Shown here piece after piece: positions 3,760-54,601 of a stretch of 64,000 nucleotides of DNA. A program made the translations under genes and the position numbers. Origin of the DNA: Prochlorococcus sp. AG-363-O15 (lineage in GTDB: Bacteria; Cyanobacteriota; Cyanobacteriia; PCC-6307; Cyanobiaceae); contig QCFZ01000001.1 of assembly GCA_003278255.1 (NCBI GenBank), forward strand, positions 124,001-188,000, given 5' to 3'. Below the pieces are notes generated by a model. That model saw nothing but the letters and a program-made list of their open reading frames with translations, did not search any database and was not told the DNA's origin. Position 1 is the first letter of the stretch. The number at the start of each line of letters is the position of its first letter.

Positions 3760-3784
3760 AAACTAGGAATTTCTTTAAACCTTT

Positions 3785-3870
3785 TTGATATAACTAAAAT
3801 CAACTACTAGCCAATGAAAAAGTGGCATTTGATTGATAGCAAGCACTCCCGGGCAGTCCTCGAGATTCAC
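3785..3870 (+). repeat. Island repeat copy a (EVE-start-like core)
   Basis: A degenerate copy of the island repeat. It carries the in-frame equivalent of the EVE gene start with the conserved Trp codon mutated to TAG (ACTACTAGCCAATGAAAA), followed by the usual GGCATTTGA. It continues with a GAGATTCACT segment matching the downstream arm of copies g and i. It marks the left edge of the array. Confidence 0.7.
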
Positions 3871-3908
3871 TAAACTTTCTCTCACTTATTTCTCTTGACT
3901 TATAACCA

Positions 3909-4643: not shown

Positions 4644-4791
4644 TCTACTCAATCTTTACTCAAACCGCCCATTTTCGCCTAAACCCCTTTATATGACTGA
4701 AATAAACTACTAGCCAATGAAAAGCAACATTTGAGTGACTGAAAGCAATTACAAGAAATTTGAAAAATCCATACATACCAAATACACACCT
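4644..4791 (+). repeat. Island repeat copy b with 11-bp direct repeats
   Basis: Two adjacent 11-mers, TCTACTCAATC (4644-4654) and TTTACTCAAAC (4655-4665), precede the core, where ATGACTGA and ACTACTAGCCAATGAAAAG correspond to the start of the EVE gene with Trp changed to TAG. Downstream are ATTACAAGAAATT and a second 11-bp-spaced pair, ATACATACC and ATACACACC. Confidence 0.8.
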
Positions 4792-4829: not shown

Positions 4830-4943
4830 ATGGAACAAGAAAAGCCACTCACCAATAAAGAAAAGAAAAAAGAAAAAGATGATAACTCTCTACTGAATTA
4901 TGAATGCGACGAAGATGACGATGGTGTCGACTGGGAGACCTAA
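4830..4943 (+). CDS. Very small charged protein (37 aa) upstream of arfB
   Basis: An ATG-started 37-codon frame ending TAA three bases before the arfB start. The peptide is Lys/Glu-rich at the start and acidic at the end (ECDEDDDGVDWET). The tight coupling to arfB suggests one transcript, possibly with translational coupling. No family recognised. Confidence 0.5.
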   Translation: MEQEKPLTNKEKKKEKDDNSLLNYECDEDDDGVDWET

Positions 4944-5375: not shown

Positions 5376-5614
5376 AATCTCGTATTGTTTAGAGAAAAGC
5401 GAACCACCTGGGTATCACACGCAATTTATGAAAAGTTGTAATCAGGTCTAATCACTTCGTCTGATATCGACTAGCAAAACTGACTTTCTCACTTAGGGGG
5501 GCTTGCTGAAAAACAAATCCAAAGAATATTTATTTGCACATAAAGAGTATTTGTCCTCATCCCAAAATTGAAATTCCTAACTATGTATCTAATAGAAGAT
5601 AAGTTCATTCATTA

Positions 5615-5809
5615 ATGGATGCTGATTCACAACTAAAAGAGATCTTAAAGATAGCTGTGGAAAATGCTGTATCAAGAATGGAAGCATTAGAAGAACCTTC
5701 TGATCGACGTTGCATTTTCCATGAATACAAGGAATGGTTAGGAGAAAATATTAATAACGAAGTTTGGGCAATCCCGACAGAGCCCATTGAGAAAGATCTC
5801 AATGGGTAG
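5615..5809 (+). CDS. Hypothetical small protein (64 aa)
   Basis: An ATG-started 64-residue acidic protein, largely helical (LKEILKIAVENAVSRMEALEEP), then FHEYKEWLGENINNEVWAIP. No family recognised. Its last codons form a perfect 10-bp inverted repeat that ends right at the TAG stop. It precedes repeat copy c. Bases 5376-5614 upstream show no gene or clear signal. Confidence 0.5.
   Translation: MDADSQLKEILKIAVENAVSRMEALEEPSDRRCIFHEYKEWLGENINNEVWAIPTEPIEKDLNG
5783..5806 (+). terminator. Perfect 10-bp hairpin at the end of the 64-aa gene
   Basis: CCCATTGAGA (5783-5792) and TCTCAATGGG (5797-5806) are perfect complements around a 4-base loop, ending immediately before the stop codon. No T-run follows, so it may be a processing or stability element rather than an intrinsic terminator. 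Confidence 0.4.
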
Positions 5810-5864
5810 ATCTTGCACTGAATAGGGATTTGTTCATTCAGCCTTTAGAAATAGATAAAAAGGG

Positions 5865-5990
5865 TTTGCTCAAACCTTAACCAAACCGCCCACTTTCACT
5901 CAAACTCCTTGATATAATTGAGATTAATCACTGGCCAATGAACAAGTGTATTTGGGTGAGTGAAAGTGATTACAAGCAATTTGCAGAATC
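5865..5990 (+). repeat. Island repeat copy c
   Basis: 11-bp direct repeats TTTGCTCAAAC (5865-5875) and CTTAACCAAAC (5876-5886) are followed by CGCCCACTTTC and a diverged core (CACTGGCCAATGAACAAG) matching the EVE start. The downstream arm GAAAGTGATTACAAGCAATTTG is present. Confidence 0.75.
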
Positions 5991-6013
5991 AGTTCACACT
6001 GTTGAGGTTCTAA

Positions 6014-6154
6014 ATGACTAAAGAAAAGAAACCAAATCCTATGAAGGAGTTTCTAGACAAGTTCTTTGATTTATGTAAGGAATATCAGCAGGAAATACCA
6101 CCACACAAAATTGCAGAGGTTTTAAGAGACTATGCAGACAGACTGGATGGGTGA
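6014..6154 (+). CDS. Hypothetical small protein (46 aa)
   Basis: An ATG-started 46-residue frame with an amphipathic helical middle (MKEFLDKFFDLCKEYQQE) and the segment IAEVLRDYADRLDG. The codon pattern looks coding. It is 45 bp upstream of the integrase-like fragment on the same strand and could be co-transcribed. No function can be assigned. Confidence 0.5.
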   Translation: MTKEKKPNPMKEFLDKFFDLCKEYQQEIPPHKIAEVLRDYADRLDG

Positions 6155-6198
6155 TGAAAGACCTACCACTTCTCCTGTCTTGTATTCAATAAAAAATA

Positions 6199-6867
6199 AT
6201 GCCCGATAAACCTTCGAAATGGATTGCCTCCCTGCGCGAAGAAATTCGACAGGAATGTGGCGAGGGATGGATGGTCCGCGGCATTGGGAAAGGCCTTGTT
6301 CAAAAGGTTCAGCTGACAGTTCGTTTTGAGGATGGAAACCGAACCTGCATTGTTCTTGGGCCAAAGGCCAAGAACAATGCAGATTTTGTTCCATGGGTAG
6401 GAACAAGTGCCGGATGGATATTGAAAATCTCCACAGACATTTCGCTAATAATGAAATCTCAAGGAAAAGGGTTGGCTGAAGCATATGAGCTAGTGAAACA
6501 AAAGAACGAATCTGGATTAAATGCTGCACTCGACTGGGAACAACTAGCTAGAAAATTCAAATCACATAAAACAAGTAATGGGAAGAAAGGATCACGAGTT
6601 TGGAACCGAAACTACCGAACTCCTATTGCCCGCACATTGCTTATCCTTACTGGCGACACTTCTGTATCAAGTGGCCACTCTGTTTTAAAAACCCTCGTTA
6701 AACATCACGGAGGAGAACCTGGCTCAGCAAGCCGACGACTACGAGTCCAATACGCAGCAGAATTCCTACGCTTTGCCTTTAAGAATGGGGCTAATAGAAG
6801 TTGGCTACCACCAGAGGATTTAAATACATTCATTGGAGAGAAGGTAACTATGGATCAACTGAATTAG
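6199..6867 (+). CDS. N-terminal half of a cyanobacterial phage-type integrase (catalytic domain absent)
   Basis: A 222-residue protein. Residues about 30-110 (KVQLTVRFEDGNRTCIVL, IMKSQGKGLAEAYELV) and 115-190 (WEQLARKFKSHK, WNRNYRTPIARTLLIL, GEPGSASRRLRVQYAAEFLRFA, WLPPEDLNTFIG) resemble the arm-binding and core-binding N-terminal domains of the tyrosine integrases of marine picocyanobacteria. Those proteins continue into a catalytic domain with R-H-R-Y residues; this frame stops before it, and no continuation precedes repeat copy d at 6911. It may be a truncated remnant or a stand-alone DNA-binding regulator. Identification is from remembered family resemblance, not a search. Confidence 0.6.
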   Translation: MPDKPSKWIASLREEIRQECGEGWMVRGIGKGLVQKVQLTVRFEDGNRTCIVLGPKAKNNADFVPWVGTSAGWILKISTDISLIMKSQGKGLAEAYELVKQKNESGLNAALDWEQLARKFKSHKTSNGKKGSRVWNRNYRTPIARTLLILTGDTSVSSGHSVLKTLVKHHGGEPGSASRRLRVQYAAEFLRFAFKNGANRSWLPPEDLNTFIGEKVTMDQLN

Positions 6868-6910
6868 AAGGGGAACACGAGTGACTGGATAAACTGCTTC
6901 TATTTACCCC

Positions 6911-7033
6911 TTTTTTCGCCCAAATCCCATGCTATAACTGACATCTTATATTGGTTAATGAAAAGCGGCATTTGAGTGAATGAAAGCGATTACAAGAAAT
7001 TCCTAAAATCCATACACACCAAATACACAACCC
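6911..7033 (+). repeat. Island repeat copy d
   Basis: The core reads TATATTGGTTAATGAAAAGC, encoding Y-W-L-M-K-S in frame with the EVE start, followed by GGCATTTGA (G-I-stop). ATTACAAGAAATT and the pair ATACACACC/ATACACAAC (11-bp spacing) lie downstream. It sits 44 bp after the integrase fragment. Confidence 0.8.
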
Positions 7034-7098
7034 TCTTATTTGATCAATAATGATACTCATCAATATTTATTCCTAGTTTCTTAGTAATTAGTAGATCC

Positions 7099-8767: not shown

Positions 8768-8877
8768 CTTTCAAAGTACACAGTCATTGCTTCACACCTA
8801 AGAGAAAATAAAGGCCCGCAGGAACCTTGTTAAGCAGTCTCCCTACACAATGAATTCACACAGACCATTCACCGAGA

Positions 8878-8998
8878 ACCCTTGCTATAGCTGACATCTT
8901 ATATTGGCTAATGAAAAGCAAATCAACTGTCTAAAAGCTAGTTATAGTAAGAATCCAGGAGAAAACCTGGTTAATTTATTCTAACCTTTATTCTAACC
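8878..8998 (+). repeat. Island repeat copy e with a 12-bp tandem repeat upstream of pstS
   Basis: The core ACATCTTATATTGGCTAATG lies at about 8893-8912 and again encodes Y-W-L-M-K-S. Unlike other copies, GGCATTTGA does not follow. About 55 bp further on, TTTATTCTAACC occurs twice in tandem (8975-8986 and 8987-8998), with an inverted CCAGG/CCTGG pair at 8956-8970. Confidence 0.7.
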
Positions 8999-9047
8999 AG
9001 CTTCTAAGTATTTACGCCTAAGATCCTAGATCGAAGGACCGTCTTGG

Positions 9048-9055
9048 GCGATCGC
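9048..9055. repeat. HIP1 octamer GCGATCGC
   Basis: A single HIP1 palindrome, within GGCGATCGCC at 9047-9056. HIP1 is abundant in many cyanobacteria but rare here; a second copy is at 41153-41160. Confidence 0.7.
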
Positions 9056-9144
9056 CGGATGGTTGTTACACCTGCATTCATCAACAAAACTTGATTAAAT
9101 CAATATTATTTGATTAATGTAACTAGGTCAATGCTTCTAGGTCA

Positions 9145-10146
9145 ATGATCTTCGCAAAGAAGGCTTTCATTTTCTCTTCTGTCCTTGCCACTAGCACAGG
9201 ACTAATTGCTTGTGGGCCTTCTGATTCAACCTCCAGTGTTCGCCTAAGTGGTGCAGGTGCAACCTTCCCCGCAAAGGTTTACACACGCTGGTTTTCTGAT
9301 CTAGCTAAATCTGGCGGGCCAAAGGTTAATTATCAAGCAGTTGGTTCGGGCTCTGGACGCAAAGCTTTTATTGATGAAACCGTGGATTTTGGTGCCTCGG
9401 ATGATCCAATGAAAGCGAAAGACATCGCCAAAGTCACTCGTGGCCTAGTTCAAATTCCTATGGTGGGAGGCACCATCGCCTTTGGCTACAACAAGCCAGA
9501 TTGTGATCTCAAGTTGACTCAGAAGCAAGCAGTCAGGATCGCAATGGGCAACATCAAAGACTGGAGTGAACTGGGTTGTCCTGCTGAAAAACTCACTTGG
9601 GTCCATCGTTCTGATGGTTCAGGTACTACCAAAGCCTTCACCAATTCAATGCAAGCTTTCTCAAATGACTCCAGTGAATGGTCTCTAGGTACTGGAAAAT
9701 CAGTTAAATGGCCTGCTGGAATTGGCGGCAAAGGGAATGCTGGTGTGGCGGGTTATATCCGCAACACACCTGGTGCCATTGGCTATGTCAACCAGTCATA
9801 TATCAAAGGTGTAGTCAAGGCTGCTGCTCTTCAAAACTTGTCTGGCGAGTATTTGAAGCCAACCACCGCTACAGGTGCTACCGCACTCAACGGCATTCGA
9901 CTAGACCAAAACTTGGCTGGTCAAAATCCCAATCCAACTGCAAAAGGTGCTTATCCAATTGCTACGTTGACCTGGGTCTTAGCCTATGAGACAGGTAATG
10001 GCTCTAAGACGGAAGCCATTAAAGAAGCTTTAAACTACCTATTAAGCGATAAGGCTCAAAACAAAGCCCCTTCACTTGGCTTTGTTCCTCTGAAGGGTGA
10101 CATCCTTAATAAGGCACGCGCTGCCGTAAATAGGATAGGAAACTGA
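9145..10146 (+). CDS. pstS: Phosphate ABC transporter periplasmic binding protein PstS (copy 2)
   Basis: A 333-residue lipoprotein paralogue of the pstS at 1133. It has an N-terminal signal with an IAC lipobox (Cys23), then SGAGATFPA, GSGSGRKAFID, DFGASDDPMKAKD and HRSDGSGTTKAF in the same order. Most of the chain matches copy 1; the signal peptide and a two- to three-residue insertion near NDSSEWS differ. It starts with ATG and is followed by a strong terminator. It lies within the repeat-bounded island next to the arsenate detoxification genes, which suggests joint use under low phosphate. The tandem repeat at 8975-8998 is a candidate control site. Confidence 0.95.
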   Translation: MIFAKKAFIFSSVLATSTGLIACGPSDSTSSVRLSGAGATFPAKVYTRWFSDLAKSGGPKVNYQAVGSGSGRKAFIDETVDFGASDDPMKAKDIAKVTRGLVQIPMVGGTIAFGYNKPDCDLKLTQKQAVRIAMGNIKDWSELGCPAEKLTWVHRSDGSGTTKAFTNSMQAFSNDSSEWSLGTGKSVKWPAGIGGKGNAGVAGYIRNTPGAIGYVNQSYIKGVVKAAALQNLSGEYLKPTTATGATALNGIRLDQNLAGQNPNPTAKGAYPIATLTWVLAYETGNGSKTEAIKEALNYLLSDKAQNKAPSLGFVPLKGDILNKARAAVNRIGN

Positions 10147-10193
10147 GTTTTAGGGTCAATTTAATAGGAGCTTTGATCAACTCCAAAATTTTT

Positions 10194-10223
10194 AAGAGGG
10201 GTATTTTTTAACCCCTCTTTTTA
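10194..10223 (+). terminator. Rho-independent terminator after pstS copy 2
   Basis: AAGAGGGGT (10194-10202) pairs with ACCCCTCTT (10211-10219), followed by a T-run. The stem is flanked by A and T tracts, so it may also work for the convergent arsJ transcript. Confidence 0.85.
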
Positions 10224-10261
10224 TTGGCTATATAAAGATTTGAAATCATTTAATTATGGAC

Positions 10262-11533
10262 TTATAGCGAACTTCCTTTAAGCGATACAGGGTTAATTAA
10301 TGATGGTAGACGTAAGCTACTTAACCATGAGAAGAGCACGAGTACACTGGAGCACCATAAACAAAGTTGCATCCCTATAGTTGCATTCTCTCCAAGCATA
10401 AATAAAGCTCCTGAAAGTAATGTTCCTAGAAGCCTGCCGGCTGCATTCGCCATGTAATAGAAACCAACATTCAGGCTCACGCTATCTGCATCGGTATAAG
10501 CCAACACCATGTAGGAATGGATAGATGAGTTCATTGCAAAAACCACTCCAAAAGCAATTAAGCCAGCGGTAATAGCAATGCCTGGATCACTCTGCCTCCA
10601 CAACGCAATAGCGATGAGTCCAGGAATTGCAGTAAGAACAGAACTCCAAAACTTAATTGTAGAAACTCCTGGACTGGATTTTTTGCCCCAGACATTCCTT
10701 AAAGTAGGCGCTAACGCCTGCACAAAGCCGTAACCAATAATCCATAGGCCTAGGAAAGCTCCAATCTCAGAGAAGTTCCAATCCAGCGATGTCTCAAGAA
10801 AAACAGGCAATGCGACTACAAACCACACATCTCTAGCTCCAAAAAGAAAAAAACGTGCCATAGAAAGTGCGTTGATCCCTTTGGATTTTGAAAATAGATC
10901 TTTAAACATCGGCTTCTTCTTCATACGCCCCATATCACCAGGCAAGACCAGAGTCAAAACAAAAGACAGAGCCAGGCCAAATGCCATTACTCCAACGGCC
11001 TTATTGAAACCAAAACTAATCAGTAAAACTCCACCCAGAAAAAATCCCACACCCTTGAGAGCATTTTTGGAACCTGTTAGAACCGCAACCCATTTAAATA
11101 ATTGCTTTTTACCTTTCTGTTCTTCTTCCGGCGTTTCAGGAACAACTGTTTTGATTGCACTCTTTGCACTCATTTTGTTGAGGTCTTTGGCGATGCCACT
11201 GATTGCTTGCGCAACCATGACATAACTAACGCTTAACAACTTTGGCCAACTAGCAGCAACAGGAACCAACATCAGTAGAGCACCTATCTGCAGAAGAGTT
11301 CCTGCCCATAGGGTTAGTCGTAAGCCATAGCGAGCACCAATCCAGCCGCCATACAAATTGGTAATGATGCCAAAGAACTCATAAAAGAGAAAAAGAAAAG
11401 CAATTTCTAAAGCTGTATATCCAAGCTGATGGAAATGAAAGACCACCAACATACGCAGAGCGCCATCAGTAAGAGTGAACGCCCAATAGTTGGCTGTGAC
11501 GATCCCGTATTGCTGCAGAGACGACAATTTCAT
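10262..11533 (-). CDS. arsJ: Organoarsenical efflux MFS transporter ArsJ
   Basis: A 423-residue polytopic membrane protein with about twelve hydrophobic segments and a major-facilitator layout, including a GWIGARYGLRLTLW loop between helices 2 and 3. ArsJ exports 1-arseno-3-phosphoglycerate, formed when GAPDH uses arsenate in place of phosphate, so arsenate leaves the cell in a labile organic form. Identification rests strongly on context: it lies 11 bp downstream of a GAPDH gene, with a divergent arsR next to that, the known arsR-gapdh-arsJ arrangement. Alternative: another MFS carrier. The start is ATG. Confidence 0.85.
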   Translation of the reverse strand: MKLSSLQQYGIVTANYWAFTLTDGALRMLVVFHFHQLGYTALEIAFLFLFYEFFGIITNLYGGWIGARYGLRLTLWAGTLLQIGALLMLVPVAASWPKLLSVSYVMVAQAISGIAKDLNKMSAKSAIKTVVPETPEEEQKGKKQLFKWVAVLTGSKNALKGVGFFLGGVLLISFGFNKAVGVMAFGLALSFVLTLVLPGDMGRMKKKPMFKDLFSKSKGINALSMARFFLFGARDVWFVVALPVFLETSLDWNFSEIGAFLGLWIIGYGFVQALAPTLRNVWGKKSSPGVSTIKFWSSVLTAIPGLIAIALWRQSDPGIAITAGLIAFGVVFAMNSSIHSYMVLAYTDADSVSLNVGFYYMANAAGRLLGTLLSGALFMLGENATIGMQLCLWCSSVLVLFSWLSSLRLPSLINPVSLKGSSL

Positions 11534-11544
11534 TTGGTTATCTT

Positions 11545-12573
11545 TTAACCTTTGCTATCTAGATTCACGACATAAGAAGTTAGGTCTGCCATACGACAGC
11601 TGTAACCCCATTCATTGTCATACCAGGCAAAAACTTTTAATTGATTCCCATCTATAACCATTGTGGACAAAGCATCAATAATTGAACTGCGTGAATCATT
11701 GACGTAGTCAATGGAGACTAAGGGCCTTTCTTCATAGCCAAGAATGCCTTTCAAATCTCCTTCGGAGGCACTTTTAAAAGCTTGGTTCGCTTCTTCTACG
11801 GAGATTTTGCGATTTAATTCAAAGACAGCATCCGTGAGAGAAGCATTAAGGAGTGGAACACGAACAGCATGTCCGTTTAATTTGCCTTGAAGCTCGGGGA
11901 AAATCATTCCTATAGCTTTAGCCGAACCAGTTGTAGTGGGGATGAGGCTTTGAATACTGCTGCGTGCTCGCCTTAAGTCGCTTTTAAAAGAGTCAATTGG
12001 AACCTGTGTATTGGTGATGTCATGAAGAGTGGTAATGGCTCCATGCATGATTCCAAAGTTTTCATTGACGACTTTTACGATTGGCGCCAAGCAGTTAGTT
12101 GTGCAAGAAGCAGCTGTGACAACACGATGAATGTTTGGGTCATACAGATTGTGGTTAATTCCATAGACGATGTTGAGTGCTTCTTCTCCTGCAACTTGTC
12201 CTGTTACTGGACAAGCAACGATGACCTTACTTAGCCCGAGTTTGTCGAAATACGGGCTAAGGGCTTCTGGAGTTTTGTTCTTACCCGAGCAATCCAAGAC
12301 AATATCTACCCCTGCATCTCTCCATGGGCAAAGGGTGAAATCACTTTCCTGGGCGTAGCTCAAAACATGTTCATCAATCAGTATTTGAGACAGGTCAGAT
12401 CGAATCGAATGAGTCCAACGCCCATGAACAGAATCAAACTCAAGCAAATGCGCAGCAACTTTTGCATCACCAGCAGGATCATTAATCTGAACTAACTCAA
12501 TATTTGGTCGACCCCATAAAGCACGAAAAACAAGACGACCTATGCGCCCAAATCCATTGATTCCAATTCGCAT
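11545..12573 (-). CDS. gap: Glyceraldehyde-3-phosphate dehydrogenase (arsenate-detoxification type)
   Basis: A GAPDH of 342 residues counted from the ATG at 12573; a TTG three codons upstream is also in frame but adds a non-homologous [13 protein letters not shown] opens the NAD-binding fold, and [11 protein letters not shown] carries the catalytic Cys (residue 157), with TGSAKAIG and the YDNEWGYS C-terminal motif present. In an arsJ operon the enzyme makes 1-arseno-3-phosphoglycerate from glyceraldehyde 3-phosphate and arsenate. It lies upstream of arsJ and divergent from arsR. The main glycolytic or Calvin-cycle GAPDH is not in this window, so this is likely an accessory gap1-type copy. Confidence 0.93.
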
Positions 12574-12627
12574 GCAAGACAATTGCAGAAAAACCGAAGA
12601 GCCCCAAGAGGCGACTCATCAACTTAT

Positions 12628-12651
12628 TTTGATATATCAAATCCACTTGAT
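12628..12651. promoter_or_regulatory. Candidate ArsR operator in the gap/arsR divergent region
   Basis: A perfect 14-bp palindrome TTTGATATATCAAA (12628-12641) overlaps a second inverted repeat, ATCAA (12636-12640), six bases, TTGAT (12647-12651). The latter arrangement resembles ArsR/SmtB operators. It lies about 60 bp from each start codon, suited to repressing both directions until arsenite appears. Confidence 0.6.
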
Positions 12652-12710
12652 GAAAGCAAATTCTCAAATTCTTATAAAATGAAATCGATATTTCTTTGGC
12701 TGCTTCGTTA

Positions 12711-13031
12711 ATGGGTTCAGTCGTAGCCCAATCACAGGCGAGAGACCTGCTTAAAGCTTTGGCGGATCCTCTGAGATTGCAAATCATTGAATCCTTGTCT
12801 AGCGGAGAAAAATGTGTCTGCGATCTCATTCAAGAGATAGGTCTTGCTCAATCCAAGATTTCCTTTCACCTTAAGGTCCTTAAAGAATCTGGCCTTATCA
12901 CTGATAGGCAAAGTGGGCGCTGGGTTTACTACAAACTCGATATAGGCGCATTAACTGAATTACAACTTTGGCTAAAACAACTCACACAAGACTGTCAGAA
13001 ATCATCAGCTAGCTGTGAAAACAATGCGTAA
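12711..13031 (+). CDS. arsR: ArsR/SmtB-family metalloregulator
   Basis: A winged-helix repressor of 106 residues from the ATG at 12711; a TTG five codons upstream is possible but less likely. LADPLRLQIIESL opens the fold. KCVCDL carries Cys35 and Cys37, the classic alpha-3 arsenite-binding pair. QSKISFHLKVLKESGLI is the recognition helix, and RWVYYKLD the wing. Extra cysteines occur in the tail (DCQKSSASCENN). It is divergent from gap-arsJ, with candidate operators between, so it is expected to repress that operon and itself and to release on binding As(III). Confidence 0.92.
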   Translation: MGSVVAQSQARDLLKALADPLRLQIIESLSSGEKCVCDLIQEIGLAQSKISFHLKVLKESGLITDRQSGRWVYYKLDIGALTELQLWLKQLTQDCQKSSASCENNA

Positions 13032-13075: not shown

Positions 13076-13222
13076 CCATACACACCAAATACACACCCTG
13101 TAATCCACTAAAAACCCTTGCTATGACTGAGAATATCTCCTATTGGCTAATGAAAAGTGAAAAACCAGTTATACCAACGGTTCCTTGAGAACAGCATGAT
13201 TTTGTTCCAACTTTGTTCCAAC
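13076..13222 (+). repeat. Island repeat copy f (hybrid junction)
   Basis: Here the ATACACACC pair (11-bp spacing, starting about 13079) lies upstream of the core instead of downstream. The core at about 13126-13158 reads ATGACTGA, then TCCTATTGGCTAATG, then AAAAGTGAA, matching the EVE gene into its Glu12 codon. Two perfect tandem 11-mers TTTGTTCCAAC follow at 13201-13211 and 13212-13222. Confidence 0.75.
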
Positions 13223-17708: not shown

Positions 17709-17737
17709 CAAATCAATAAAAACCCCTAGATCCAAGC

Positions 17738-17895
17738 TTTACCCAAACCGCTATTTTCTCCCAAATTCATTGCTATAACTACATCTCATATTGGTTAATG
17801 AAACAGTGCACTTGAGTAATAGCAACCTTTTTCAGTGAATCGTCGAGATTTACTCAAACTCATTTTCTCTTCAATTAATAGGCGAATTTCCTAGG
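17738..17895 (+). repeat. Island repeat copy g
   Basis: TTTACCCAAAC (17738-17748), CGCTATTTTC and a core with CATATTGGTTAATGAAAC match the EVE upstream region and start, one base out of frame. A downstream arm with CGTCGAGATTTACTCAAACTC (iteron at 17849-17859) and CTTCAATTAAT-type sequence matches copy i. Confidence 0.75.
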
Positions 17896-22796: not shown

Positions 22797-22935
22797 GGTT
22801 TCCCAAAACCGCCCATTTCCACCAAAATCCATTGCTATGACTGACATAAACTACTGAATCATGAAGAGCGGCATTTGAGTGGTGGACAGGGATTTCAAGG
22901 GAACGCTGAAATAAATACCAACTAAATACACACAC
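22797..22935 (+). repeat. Island repeat copy h (tandem with copy i)
   Basis: AACCGCCCATTTCCACC, CATTGCTATGACTGACAT and AAACTACTGAATCATGAAGAGC match the EVE region with Trp changed to TGA. GGCATTTGAGTGGTGGA follows, and an 11-bp-spaced AAATACACACAC end runs straight into copy i with no cargo between. Confidence 0.75.
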
Positions 22936-22937
22936 TC

Positions 22938-23085
22938 CAATTCGCCCAAATCCATTGCTATGACAGAGATCAATTAGTGGCTAATGAAAAGCGGTATTTG
23001 AATGATGGCAACTACTCTCAGCGAATCGTCGAGATTTACTCAAACTTTACTCAAACTCCTATTCACTTCAATTAAGAGGCGCATT
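22938..23085 (+). repeat. Island repeat copy i (tandem with copy h)
   Basis: TTCGCCCAAATCCATTGCTATG and ATTAGTGGCTAATGAAAAGC match the EVE start with Tyr changed to TAG. Downstream, CGTCGAGA precedes two perfect 11-mers TTTACTCAAAC (23035-23045 and 23046-23056) and CTTCAATTAAGAGGCG, shared with copy g. Confidence 0.8.
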
Positions 23086-25330: not shown

Positions 25331-25480
25331 TTTATTCAAACTTTGTTCAAACCGTCCATTTTCACCCAAACCCCTTGATATGACTGAGATAAACTACTGG
25401 CTAATGAAAAGAGGCATTTGAGTGGTGGAAAGCGATTACAAGGAATTGGAAAAATCCATACAAACTAAATACACACTTTT
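25331..25480 (+). repeat. Island repeat copy j (best preserved)
   Basis: TTTATTCAAAC (25331-25341) and TTTGTTCAAAC (25342-25352) precede CGTCCATTTTCACCCAAAC and the core. The core encodes M-T-E-I-N-Y-W-L-M-K-R-G-I-stop in frame with the EVE protein. GAAAGCGATTACAAGGAATT and ATACAAACTAAATACACAC follow. Confidence 0.85.
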
Positions 25481-25833
25481 CGTTGATTTCTAAAGAGTAG
25501 AAAAAAGCCGCCATTCAACACTTAGGAAAATTTGATTCTTGATCATTCCTTGTCAGTGCAGGGTTTTGATAGCAACCGATCGCAGCTAATCAAGAATTTC
25601 TATTCAAACTTTATTCAAACTTGCATCCAAGAGATTAATCACAAGTAAGTATCACTAAGAATTAGGGAACTCGACAAGTATTAGAGAATACTTAAATCCA
25701 GTATTATGTATTTATTGAGACTCAATATAGTTAAGACATCAAGATAAAGCTCTATTTTAGTTGAAAATGTACCAAAAGAAACAATAAGTATCTTCATTAA
25801 TCTATATGTTTAAATCACTTTTATAAGGTTCAC
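25481..25833. other. Intergenic region with the second copy of the 60-bp repeat
   Basis: No gene. It contains a tandem 11-mer pair TCTATTCAAAC/TTTATTCAAAC at 25599-25620, leading into the 60-bp repeat (25610-25669) also found at 15651. The rest is AT-rich leader sequence before the 60-aa gene. Confidence 0.6.
25610..25669 (+). repeat. 60-bp dispersed repeat, copy 2
   Basis: Near-identical to 15651-15711, starting TTTATTCAAACTTGCATCC; one base is missing and a few substituted. Here it is preceded by an additional 11-mer of the same type. Confidence 0.8.
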
Positions 25834-27249: not shown

Positions 27250-27277
27250 AAAATCTATGAACCCCTGAGATCGAAGG

Positions 27278-27348
27278 TTTACCCAAACCGCCCATTTTCG
27301 CCCAAATCCATTGATATGACTGAATGTAACTACTGGCTAATGAAAAGT
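27278..27348 (+). repeat. Island repeat copy k: the intact source at the EVE gene start
   Basis: TTTACCCAAAC (27278-27288), CGCCCATTTTCGCCCAAATCC and ATGACTGA lead into AACTACTGGCTAATGAAAAG, which here continues into a full EVE gene. All other copies match this stretch and then leave it within about 12 codons. Confidence 0.85.
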
Positions 27349-27777
27349 GAACCAGATGTTTACGGGATTCATCAGCTTCAAAAAGAAAAAAGTACTTTAT
27401 GGGATGGCATCAGAAACTATCAGGCTCGAAACTTTATGCGATCAATGCATATAGGAGATAAAGCTTTTTTTTATCACTCTAATTGTAAGCCGCCTGGAAT
27501 AGTAGGCCTAATGATTGTACAAGAAACGCTAATAATTGATCCATCTCAATTTGATCGCAACTCAAAATATTTTGATCCAAAGTCTTCTCAGGAAAAACCT
27601 AGGTGGGATTGTGTAAAGGTTGGATATTTAAAGACATTTAAATCACAAATTTCTTTAAATGAATTGCGAGAACTTTATACAGCCGAAGAATTGCGGGTTG
27701 TGCGACAAGGCAATCGCCTTTCAATAATGCCTGTACCAAGATACACTGCACAAGATATATTAGGCCACCTTGATTAA
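27316..27777 (+). CDS. EVE-domain (PUA-like) protein
   Basis: A 153-residue protein consisting of one EVE domain: YWLMKSEPDVYGI (residues 6-18) is the family's hallmark start, followed by WDGIRNYQARNFMRSMHIGDKAFFYHS and the central PPGIVGLM. EVE proteins resemble PUA domains and bind modified nucleic-acid bases; they are often linked to RNA metabolism or phage defence. The ATG at 27316 lies inside the repeat unit, and the same start sequence, cut short, occurs ten more times upstream. This makes the gene's 5' end the likely target of whatever built the island. Confidence 0.92.
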   Translation: MTECNYWLMKSEPDVYGIHQLQKEKSTLWDGIRNYQARNFMRSMHIGDKAFFYHSNCKPPGIVGLMIVQETLIIDPSQFDRNSKYFDPKSSQEKPRWDCVKVGYLKTFKSQISLNELRELYTAEELRVVRQGNRLSIMPVPRYTAQDILGHLD

Positions 27778-54461: not shown

Positions 54462-54601
54462 CTAGTAAGCGCGAATAGATAGGACCGGGAGTTTATACCT
54501 GCGCGTAGGACATCTCGTTAAGTTGAGATGGGCCAGCATCATTGCGGACCTTCGCGCAGGAGTTTGTCAGACAATCTGATGAAAGCTAACAAAAGCATTA
54601 A

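Follow-up and report, generated by a model that had tools for sequence, protein, structure and literature searches.

Organization of the repeat array

The window analyzed here is a stretch of 64,000 nucleotides from the genome of Prochlorococcus sp. AG-363-O15. It contains an array of repeats that ends at a gene encoding an EVE-domain protein. A gene encoding a short integrase-like protein, designated INTN, lies within the array. The features of the locus are as follows:

3761–3871, plus strand: repeat copy, distal end of the array
4654–4778, plus strand: repeat copy
4830–4943: small ORF
5874–6001, plus strand: repeat copy c, displaced EVE 5′ end that has lost the start codon; its right arm belongs to the INTN cassette
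5925–5944, plus strand: crossover core of copy c (TAATCACTGGCCAATGAACA)
6014–6154, plus strand: 46-aa ORF of unknown function, 45 nt upstream of INTN in most main-clade loci
6199–6867, plus strand: INTN, putative 222-aa stand-alone arm-binding and core-binding part of a tyrosine integrase
6908–7019, plus strand: repeat copy d, downstream border of the INTN cassette
6945–6964, plus strand: crossover core of copy d
8854–8987, plus strand: repeat copy, weak
13091–13214, plus strand: repeat copy
17735–17860, plus strand: repeat copy
22799–22923, plus strand: repeat copy, first of a tandem pair
22926–23048, plus strand: repeat copy, second of the tandem pair
25339–25466, plus strand: repeat copy
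25565–25612, plus strand: partial repeat, right arm only
27276–27352, plus strand: left arm and core at the living EVE gene, the probable present attachment site
27316–27777, plus strand: EVE-domain gene (PF01878), putative integration target, proximal end of the array

The EVE-domain gene is intact and matches PF01878 with E = 1e-52; the last repeat copy is its start. The core of the repeat corresponds to the first EVE codons, ATG ACT GAA... AAC TAC TGG CTA ATG AAA. A start in the EVE frame (MTEINYWL, MAQQEINYW and others) is kept in 89 of the 136 repeats; the remaining frames account for 13 and 5. The repeats of the island, whose origin the initial annotation had not recognized, derive from the 5′ end of the EVE-domain gene, of which they are displaced copies. 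Three other identities of the repeat were rejected. It is not a small gene of its own, since the 13-aa peptides of the type MTEINYWLMK.. are the EVE start. It is not an RNA, as judged from the lack of any Rfam match and of a conserved structure. It is also not an integron attC site: no consensus fold was found in 52 repeats, and of four copies folded singly, three did not surpass shuffled sequences. The tandem repeats at 22799–23048 have no gene between them and apparently represent an empty cassette position. No tRNA gene was found in the window.

The same arrangement is found in other genomes. In 11 closed genomes, 108 of the 111 repeats are located upstream of the EVE gene within 120 kb, 106 of them in the orientation of this gene, and the array lies directly upstream of EVE in every array-bearing closed genome examined. 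The three remaining repeats all belong to the genome G051, where they are near integrase genes. The genome G025 has two more off-array copies, 2–5 kb from a full-length integrase. The off-array repeats and the full-length integrases near them in these two genomes are at 5453–6937 and 8785–10041 of locus L097, 5447–5544 of L098, and 1480–2766 and 8271–8335 of L099; in L097 the repeats separate tandem zinc-ribbon paralogues. The full-length integrases, L097:8785–10041 in G025 and L099:1480–2766 in G051, are candidate enzymes for the EVE site.

The genes neighboring the repeats are shuffled between strains. They include an ArfB-like release factor, an OsmC-like protein, a 2OG oxygenase, an ArsJ-Gap-ArsR block and a nitrite reductase-like block, among others; the family names of the two blocks are our own reading of the sequences. 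In the window, a gene for a PstS-like phosphate-binding protein is found beside the ArsJ-like MFS, Gap and ArsR block (9145–13031), and this block is near INTN in further genomes (L045, L047, L055).

Reassortment of the repeat arms at the core

Synteny between the loci breaks at the repeats. Of 266 alignment ends, which are not all from independent alignments, 102 fall at repeats, against about 19 expected and a maximum of 59 in 2000 circular shifts. Among 115–116 non-redundant repeats, associations between alignment columns are strong inside the left half and inside the right half of the repeat and weak across them, with the break at columns 50–70. The Mantel r is 0.215 and 0.479 within the halves, values reached in none of 999 permutations, and 0.03–0.09 between them. 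When two repeats have only the downstream gene in common, their right arms are similar (0.733, background 0.565) and their left arms are not (0.631, background 0.622). When only the upstream gene is common, the left arms reach 0.724 and the right arms 0.576. With independent pairs, the p values of the two arm similarities are 2e-12 and 7e-5, and the opposite arm is not significant. The right arm thus goes with the downstream gene and the left arm with the upstream gene, and therefore a cassette consists of a right arm, one or more genes and a left arm. The repeat has an imperfect dyad about its core, with a score of 7.8 compared to at most 5.7 in 200 column permutations. In the nhmmer set, half-sites with a sharp end at the core were not evident, 10 ending there and 44 at other positions. 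The data on the arms show that left and right arms are exchanged between repeats at a core of about 20 bp made of EVE codons. We infer that the exchange of the arms is performed by a tyrosine recombinase.

The repeats might instead be promoter duplications, dispersed by ordinary homologous recombination or gene conversion and not serving as recombination sites. The left arms do carry the EVE promoter region and start codon, and partial and inverted weak matches exist. Against this stands the switch of identity inside the core, because about 20 bp is short for RecA-dependent exchange. The arms on either side are independent, and the repeats keep one orientation and one location per genome. We regard such a duplication as improbable. 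The arrangement also fits the integration at the 5′ end of dusA (PMC4482086), which likewise speaks against it.

The dusA-associated genomic islands insert within the 5′ part of a conserved gene, possess semiconserved direct repeats and supply the gene with its 5′ sequence (PMC4482086). The EVE array resembles these islands in all three respects and is consistent with serial integration at a gene's 5′ end, in which every new insertion replaces the existing end. The EVE 5′ regions, comprising promoter and N-terminus, are of several types that are interchanged between genomes (EVE loci L119–L141) and look as if they had been replaced repeatedly by integration. The differences from the dusA islands are the target, which is EVE, and the number of joints, up to about 25–30 in tandem with small cassettes. 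Furthermore, the dusA-type integrase adjoins its target gene, whereas no full-length integrase was found in the array loci searched.

INTN, an integrase-like protein that ends before the catalytic domain

The INTN ORF begins with ATG, ends with TAG and comprises 222 codons on the plus strand. It is located directly between two repeat copies (5874–6001 and 6908–7019), as the initial annotation had stated. In tblastn searches of related genomes, residues 4–218 of the 222 matched full-length integrases with E = 5.6e-35 to 1e-17; in all, the N-terminal half of many full-length proteins, open frames of about 400–470 codons, was matched, the better ones with E = 5.6e-35 to 1e-5. The full-length relatives are picocyanobacterial tyrosine integrases of 415–421 aa, and the end of INTN coincides with the start of their catalytic domain. 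Past this point the aligned full-length proteins carry the motifs GLRPxE, a lysine, (S/G)xRHG/A and MxH(S/T)...HxxxY. On a profile built from seven full-length relatives, INTN covers positions 1–207 of 407 and never extends past about 214. The R-K-H-R-H/W-Y catalytic domain is hence absent, and no remnant of it was found within 2 kb. PDB chains of XerC-like/XerA, XerD and IntI4 are matched by the same profile; the matches lie essentially beyond model position 200 or so, in the region missing from INTN. INTN itself gave no Pfam match and only insignificant PHROGs matches, and no relative of it was found in the viral contigs searched.

The AlphaFold2 model of INTN (pLDDT 84) predicts an alpha-beta-beta-beta-alpha domain at the N-terminus followed by a helical bundle. 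The INTN model alone had no significant match in a Foldseek search. For a full-length relative, the model aligned at E of about 1e-6 with XerA, Tn1549 Int and, over 395 columns, lambda Int, so that the expected structural match to recombinases was obtained for the relative and not for INTN itself. The assignment of the INTN domains, including the core-binding domain, therefore rests on homology and on the full-length model. Judged by this homology, INTN, which lacks the catalytic domain, is predicted to correspond to the DNA-binding N-terminal portion of a picocyanobacterial tyrosine integrase, and the parent integrase is probably related to those of Synechococcus/Cyanobium-type genomes. The initial annotation had described just such a resemblance and an end before the catalytic domain; with E of about 1e-35 and the motifs following in the full-length proteins, this description holds.

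Distribution and conservation of INTN

The short form is present in at least 23 Prochlorococcus genomes, with 69–93% identity. After assignment of starts and stops, proteins of about 215–237 aa were found in some 22 other Prochlorococcus genomes, and one copy is broken; because the compared genomes are related to one another, such counts are not independent. In a maximum-likelihood tree, a branch with 100/100 support separates the 25 short sequences from all others, and they nest within the full-length enzymes, next to those of the genomes G063 and G004. Members from more than 20 genomes share a common C-terminal end. A conserved insertion (the 'GPKAKSDPDFVPW' region) and a longer hairpin are restricted to the short form in the alignment. 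The dN/dS of INTN has a median of 0.19 over 298 pairs and is similar in the N-terminal and core-binding parts; for a pair from genomes that we take to be MIT9313-like it is 0.22 (dN 0.059, dS 0.263). Both the HMM alignment and these NG86 estimates are approximate. Purifying selection has maintained the short form, a single clade, across low-light Prochlorococcus. Since this single clade is nested, the simplest history is a single loss of the catalytic domain that predates the divergence of the MIT9313-like lineages from the rest. Two further proteins, G070:C1:430853–431137 (217 aa) and G009:C1:597383–597649 (142 aa), match only the first 90 or so positions of the integrase profile and are possibly arm-domain-only proteins.

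The initial annotation had offered two readings of INTN, the first of which was a remnant of the enzyme that built the array. As the decaying integrase of an old integrated element, INTN would be expected to look much as it does in some respects: it is a truncated integrase in an island, it tends toward the EVE-distal and presumably oldest end of the array, and the broken copy, which has internal stops (L056:10399–11045, genome G015), indicates that loss does happen. However, the family is a single old clade with a constant end, and dN/dS is about 0.2 in both domains. No catalytic codons were found by profile in the 1.5–2 kb downstream of every INTN copy, a search in which the positive controls worked. 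The region 6868–7098, which the initial annotation had proposed to search for decayed catalytic codons, holds a repeat copy and no catalytic trace. In its simple form this reading is already refuted, and we give it very little credence. The initial annotation had also set the integrase origin against a widespread family of the same length without integrase links; the family is indeed widespread and nearly constant in length, and its links to integrases are clear.

INTN as a cassette of the array

Homology around INTN extends from inside the upstream repeat to just past the INTN stop codon. At the 11 joints upstream of INTN the right arms are 0.798 identical (random sets at most 0.659), whereas the left arms are 0.610 identical (random 0.614). 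The unit consisting of the right arm, the 46-aa ORF and INTN is thus one of the reassorting cassettes. Many Prochlorococcus genomes encode the conserved 46-aa protein, each one to four times and often just after a repeat, with or without INTN. An obligate partnership of the two was rejected: the 46-aa ORF occurs without INTN, and in G070 it is 110 kb away from it.

In all six closed INTN-bearing genomes that are not MIT9313-like, INTN lies within the array or close to it, in the same orientation and mostly toward the EVE-distal end. The distance between INTN and EVE is 19–44 kb, and no integrase gene was found adjoining EVE in the window. Across 673 kb of array loci, taken from the window and from other genomes and in some cases overlapping, INTN is the only match of its integrase family, always at model positions 4–216 of 409; no full-length integrase of the family was found in these loci. 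A PF00589 (Phage_integrase) search of the assembly, which is 71% complete, gave one match on another contig, a tyrosine recombinase of about 390 aa that is widespread across cyanobacteria. The earlier statement that INTN is the only recombinase-related gene of the island therefore holds for tyrosine recombinases of its own family.

A strict co-occurrence of INTN and arrays was rejected, as each occurs without the other. Arrays without INTN exist in the closed genomes G003 (19–21 repeats) and G077 (10 repeats); therefore INTN is not needed to keep an array. INTN occurs without an array in G070, where it is far from EVE, and nearly so in G028. In the MIT9313-like genomes it is kept under selection while the EVE site is almost empty, so that INTN must have some use apart from the array.

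Proposed role of INTN

The second reading of the initial annotation, a stand-alone DNA-binding accessory protein or inhibitor, fits the data best, the target being a presumed one. High-affinity binding of arm sites by lambda Int is a property of its N-terminal domain, and its core sites are contacted by the core-binding domain together with the catalytic domain (PMC4880445). Arm-binding and core-binding domains without catalysis should occupy sites uncut, and therefore a role at attachment sites is favored. We consider it somewhat probable that INTN is an intact, domesticated DNA-binding protein without catalytic activity, which would serve at attachment sites as a competitor, regulator or accessory factor.

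We propose, tentatively, the following course of events. The array would have grown through successive integrations by a tyrosine recombinase at the start of EVE, with every integration giving EVE a new promoter and first codons. The recombinase would be supplied in trans. With less certainty, INTN may bind the attachment sites, whether at the joints of the array or on incoming elements, and leave them uncut, and this binding may limit or organize recombination, INTN being a competitor, a cap or an accessory subunit. Low-light Prochlorococcus would then possess a gene-capture array without an integrase of its own, whose cassettes are stacked before EVE by recombinases acting in trans, with INTN binding the joints and governing recombination. 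This last picture, of an array governed by INTN, is possible, and we would not call it likely. If true, it would represent a system resembling an integron, in which the resident 'integrase' controls recombination and does not cut. How the streamlined Prochlorococcus gains and reshuffles its island genes is a long-standing question. The proposed course of events points to a definite place, the start of the EVE gene, to a crossover core of about 20 bp and to a candidate controlling protein, which can be tested with purified components. The selected, lineage-wide loss of the catalytic half of an integrase would also be an unusual case of domestication.

INTN might instead be a domesticated transcription regulator that has no role at attachment sites and is only cargo of the array. 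The selection on INTN in MIT9313-like genomes without an array, the arrays that exist without INTN and its behavior as an ordinary cassette agree with this, as does the small number of regulatory proteins known in Prochlorococcus (PMC2518516). However, no operator-like sequence is conserved upstream of INTN across lineages, the homology in MIT9313-like genomes stops at the gene, and in the other closed genomes INTN stays in or beside the array and co-oriented although its neighbors are shuffled. A pure regulator is conceivable, and we incline against it.

INTN might also be one part of a two-part recombinase, providing specificity or architecture by binding the arms and core at the EVE start and recruiting a catalytic partner in trans, such as the recombinase of about 390 aa. 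The latter is the only PF00589 match in G000 and in the closed genomes G030, G064 and G009, the arms plainly recombine at the core, and a full-length integrase is absent from all array loci examined. This is nevertheless unlikely. The recombinase of about 390 aa is spread over cyanobacteria without arrays and so has another job, the full-length integrases near the off-array repeats of G025 and G051 could act alone, and arrays exist without INTN.

Comparison with other recombination systems

INTN is predicted to share arm-binding and core-binding domains with the complex tyrosine recombinases that carry an arm-binding domain, such as lambda Int and Tn1549 Int, with which the model of its full-length homologues aligns. 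It differs from them in having no catalytic domain; PMC8138268 describes a core-binding and a catalytic region for all recombinases of this kind. Like chromosomal integron arrays, the EVE array has many small cassettes, one orientation of the joints, a fixed anchor at one end and an order that is shuffled between strains. Unlike in them, no IntI and no conserved folded single-strand joint were found in it, and its joints are EVE 5′ ends. A search for an integron intI beside the array gave no catalytic-domain match in the window array. The tycheposons of Prochlorococcus are likewise tyrosine-recombinase-linked cargo in genomic islands. In the description cited in PMC10872708, they have a tyrosine recombinase and a bordering tRNA gene; as far as this secondhand description goes, the array of the window differs in lacking both the tRNA gene and a full-length recombinase. 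Our literature search, which covered publications other than the original tycheposon paper and most subscription papers, retrieved none naming the INTN family or the EVE-gene array. Outside the array, an ATPC RNA motif (RF01067) was detected on the minus strand at 54502–54589, scoring just over the gathering score.
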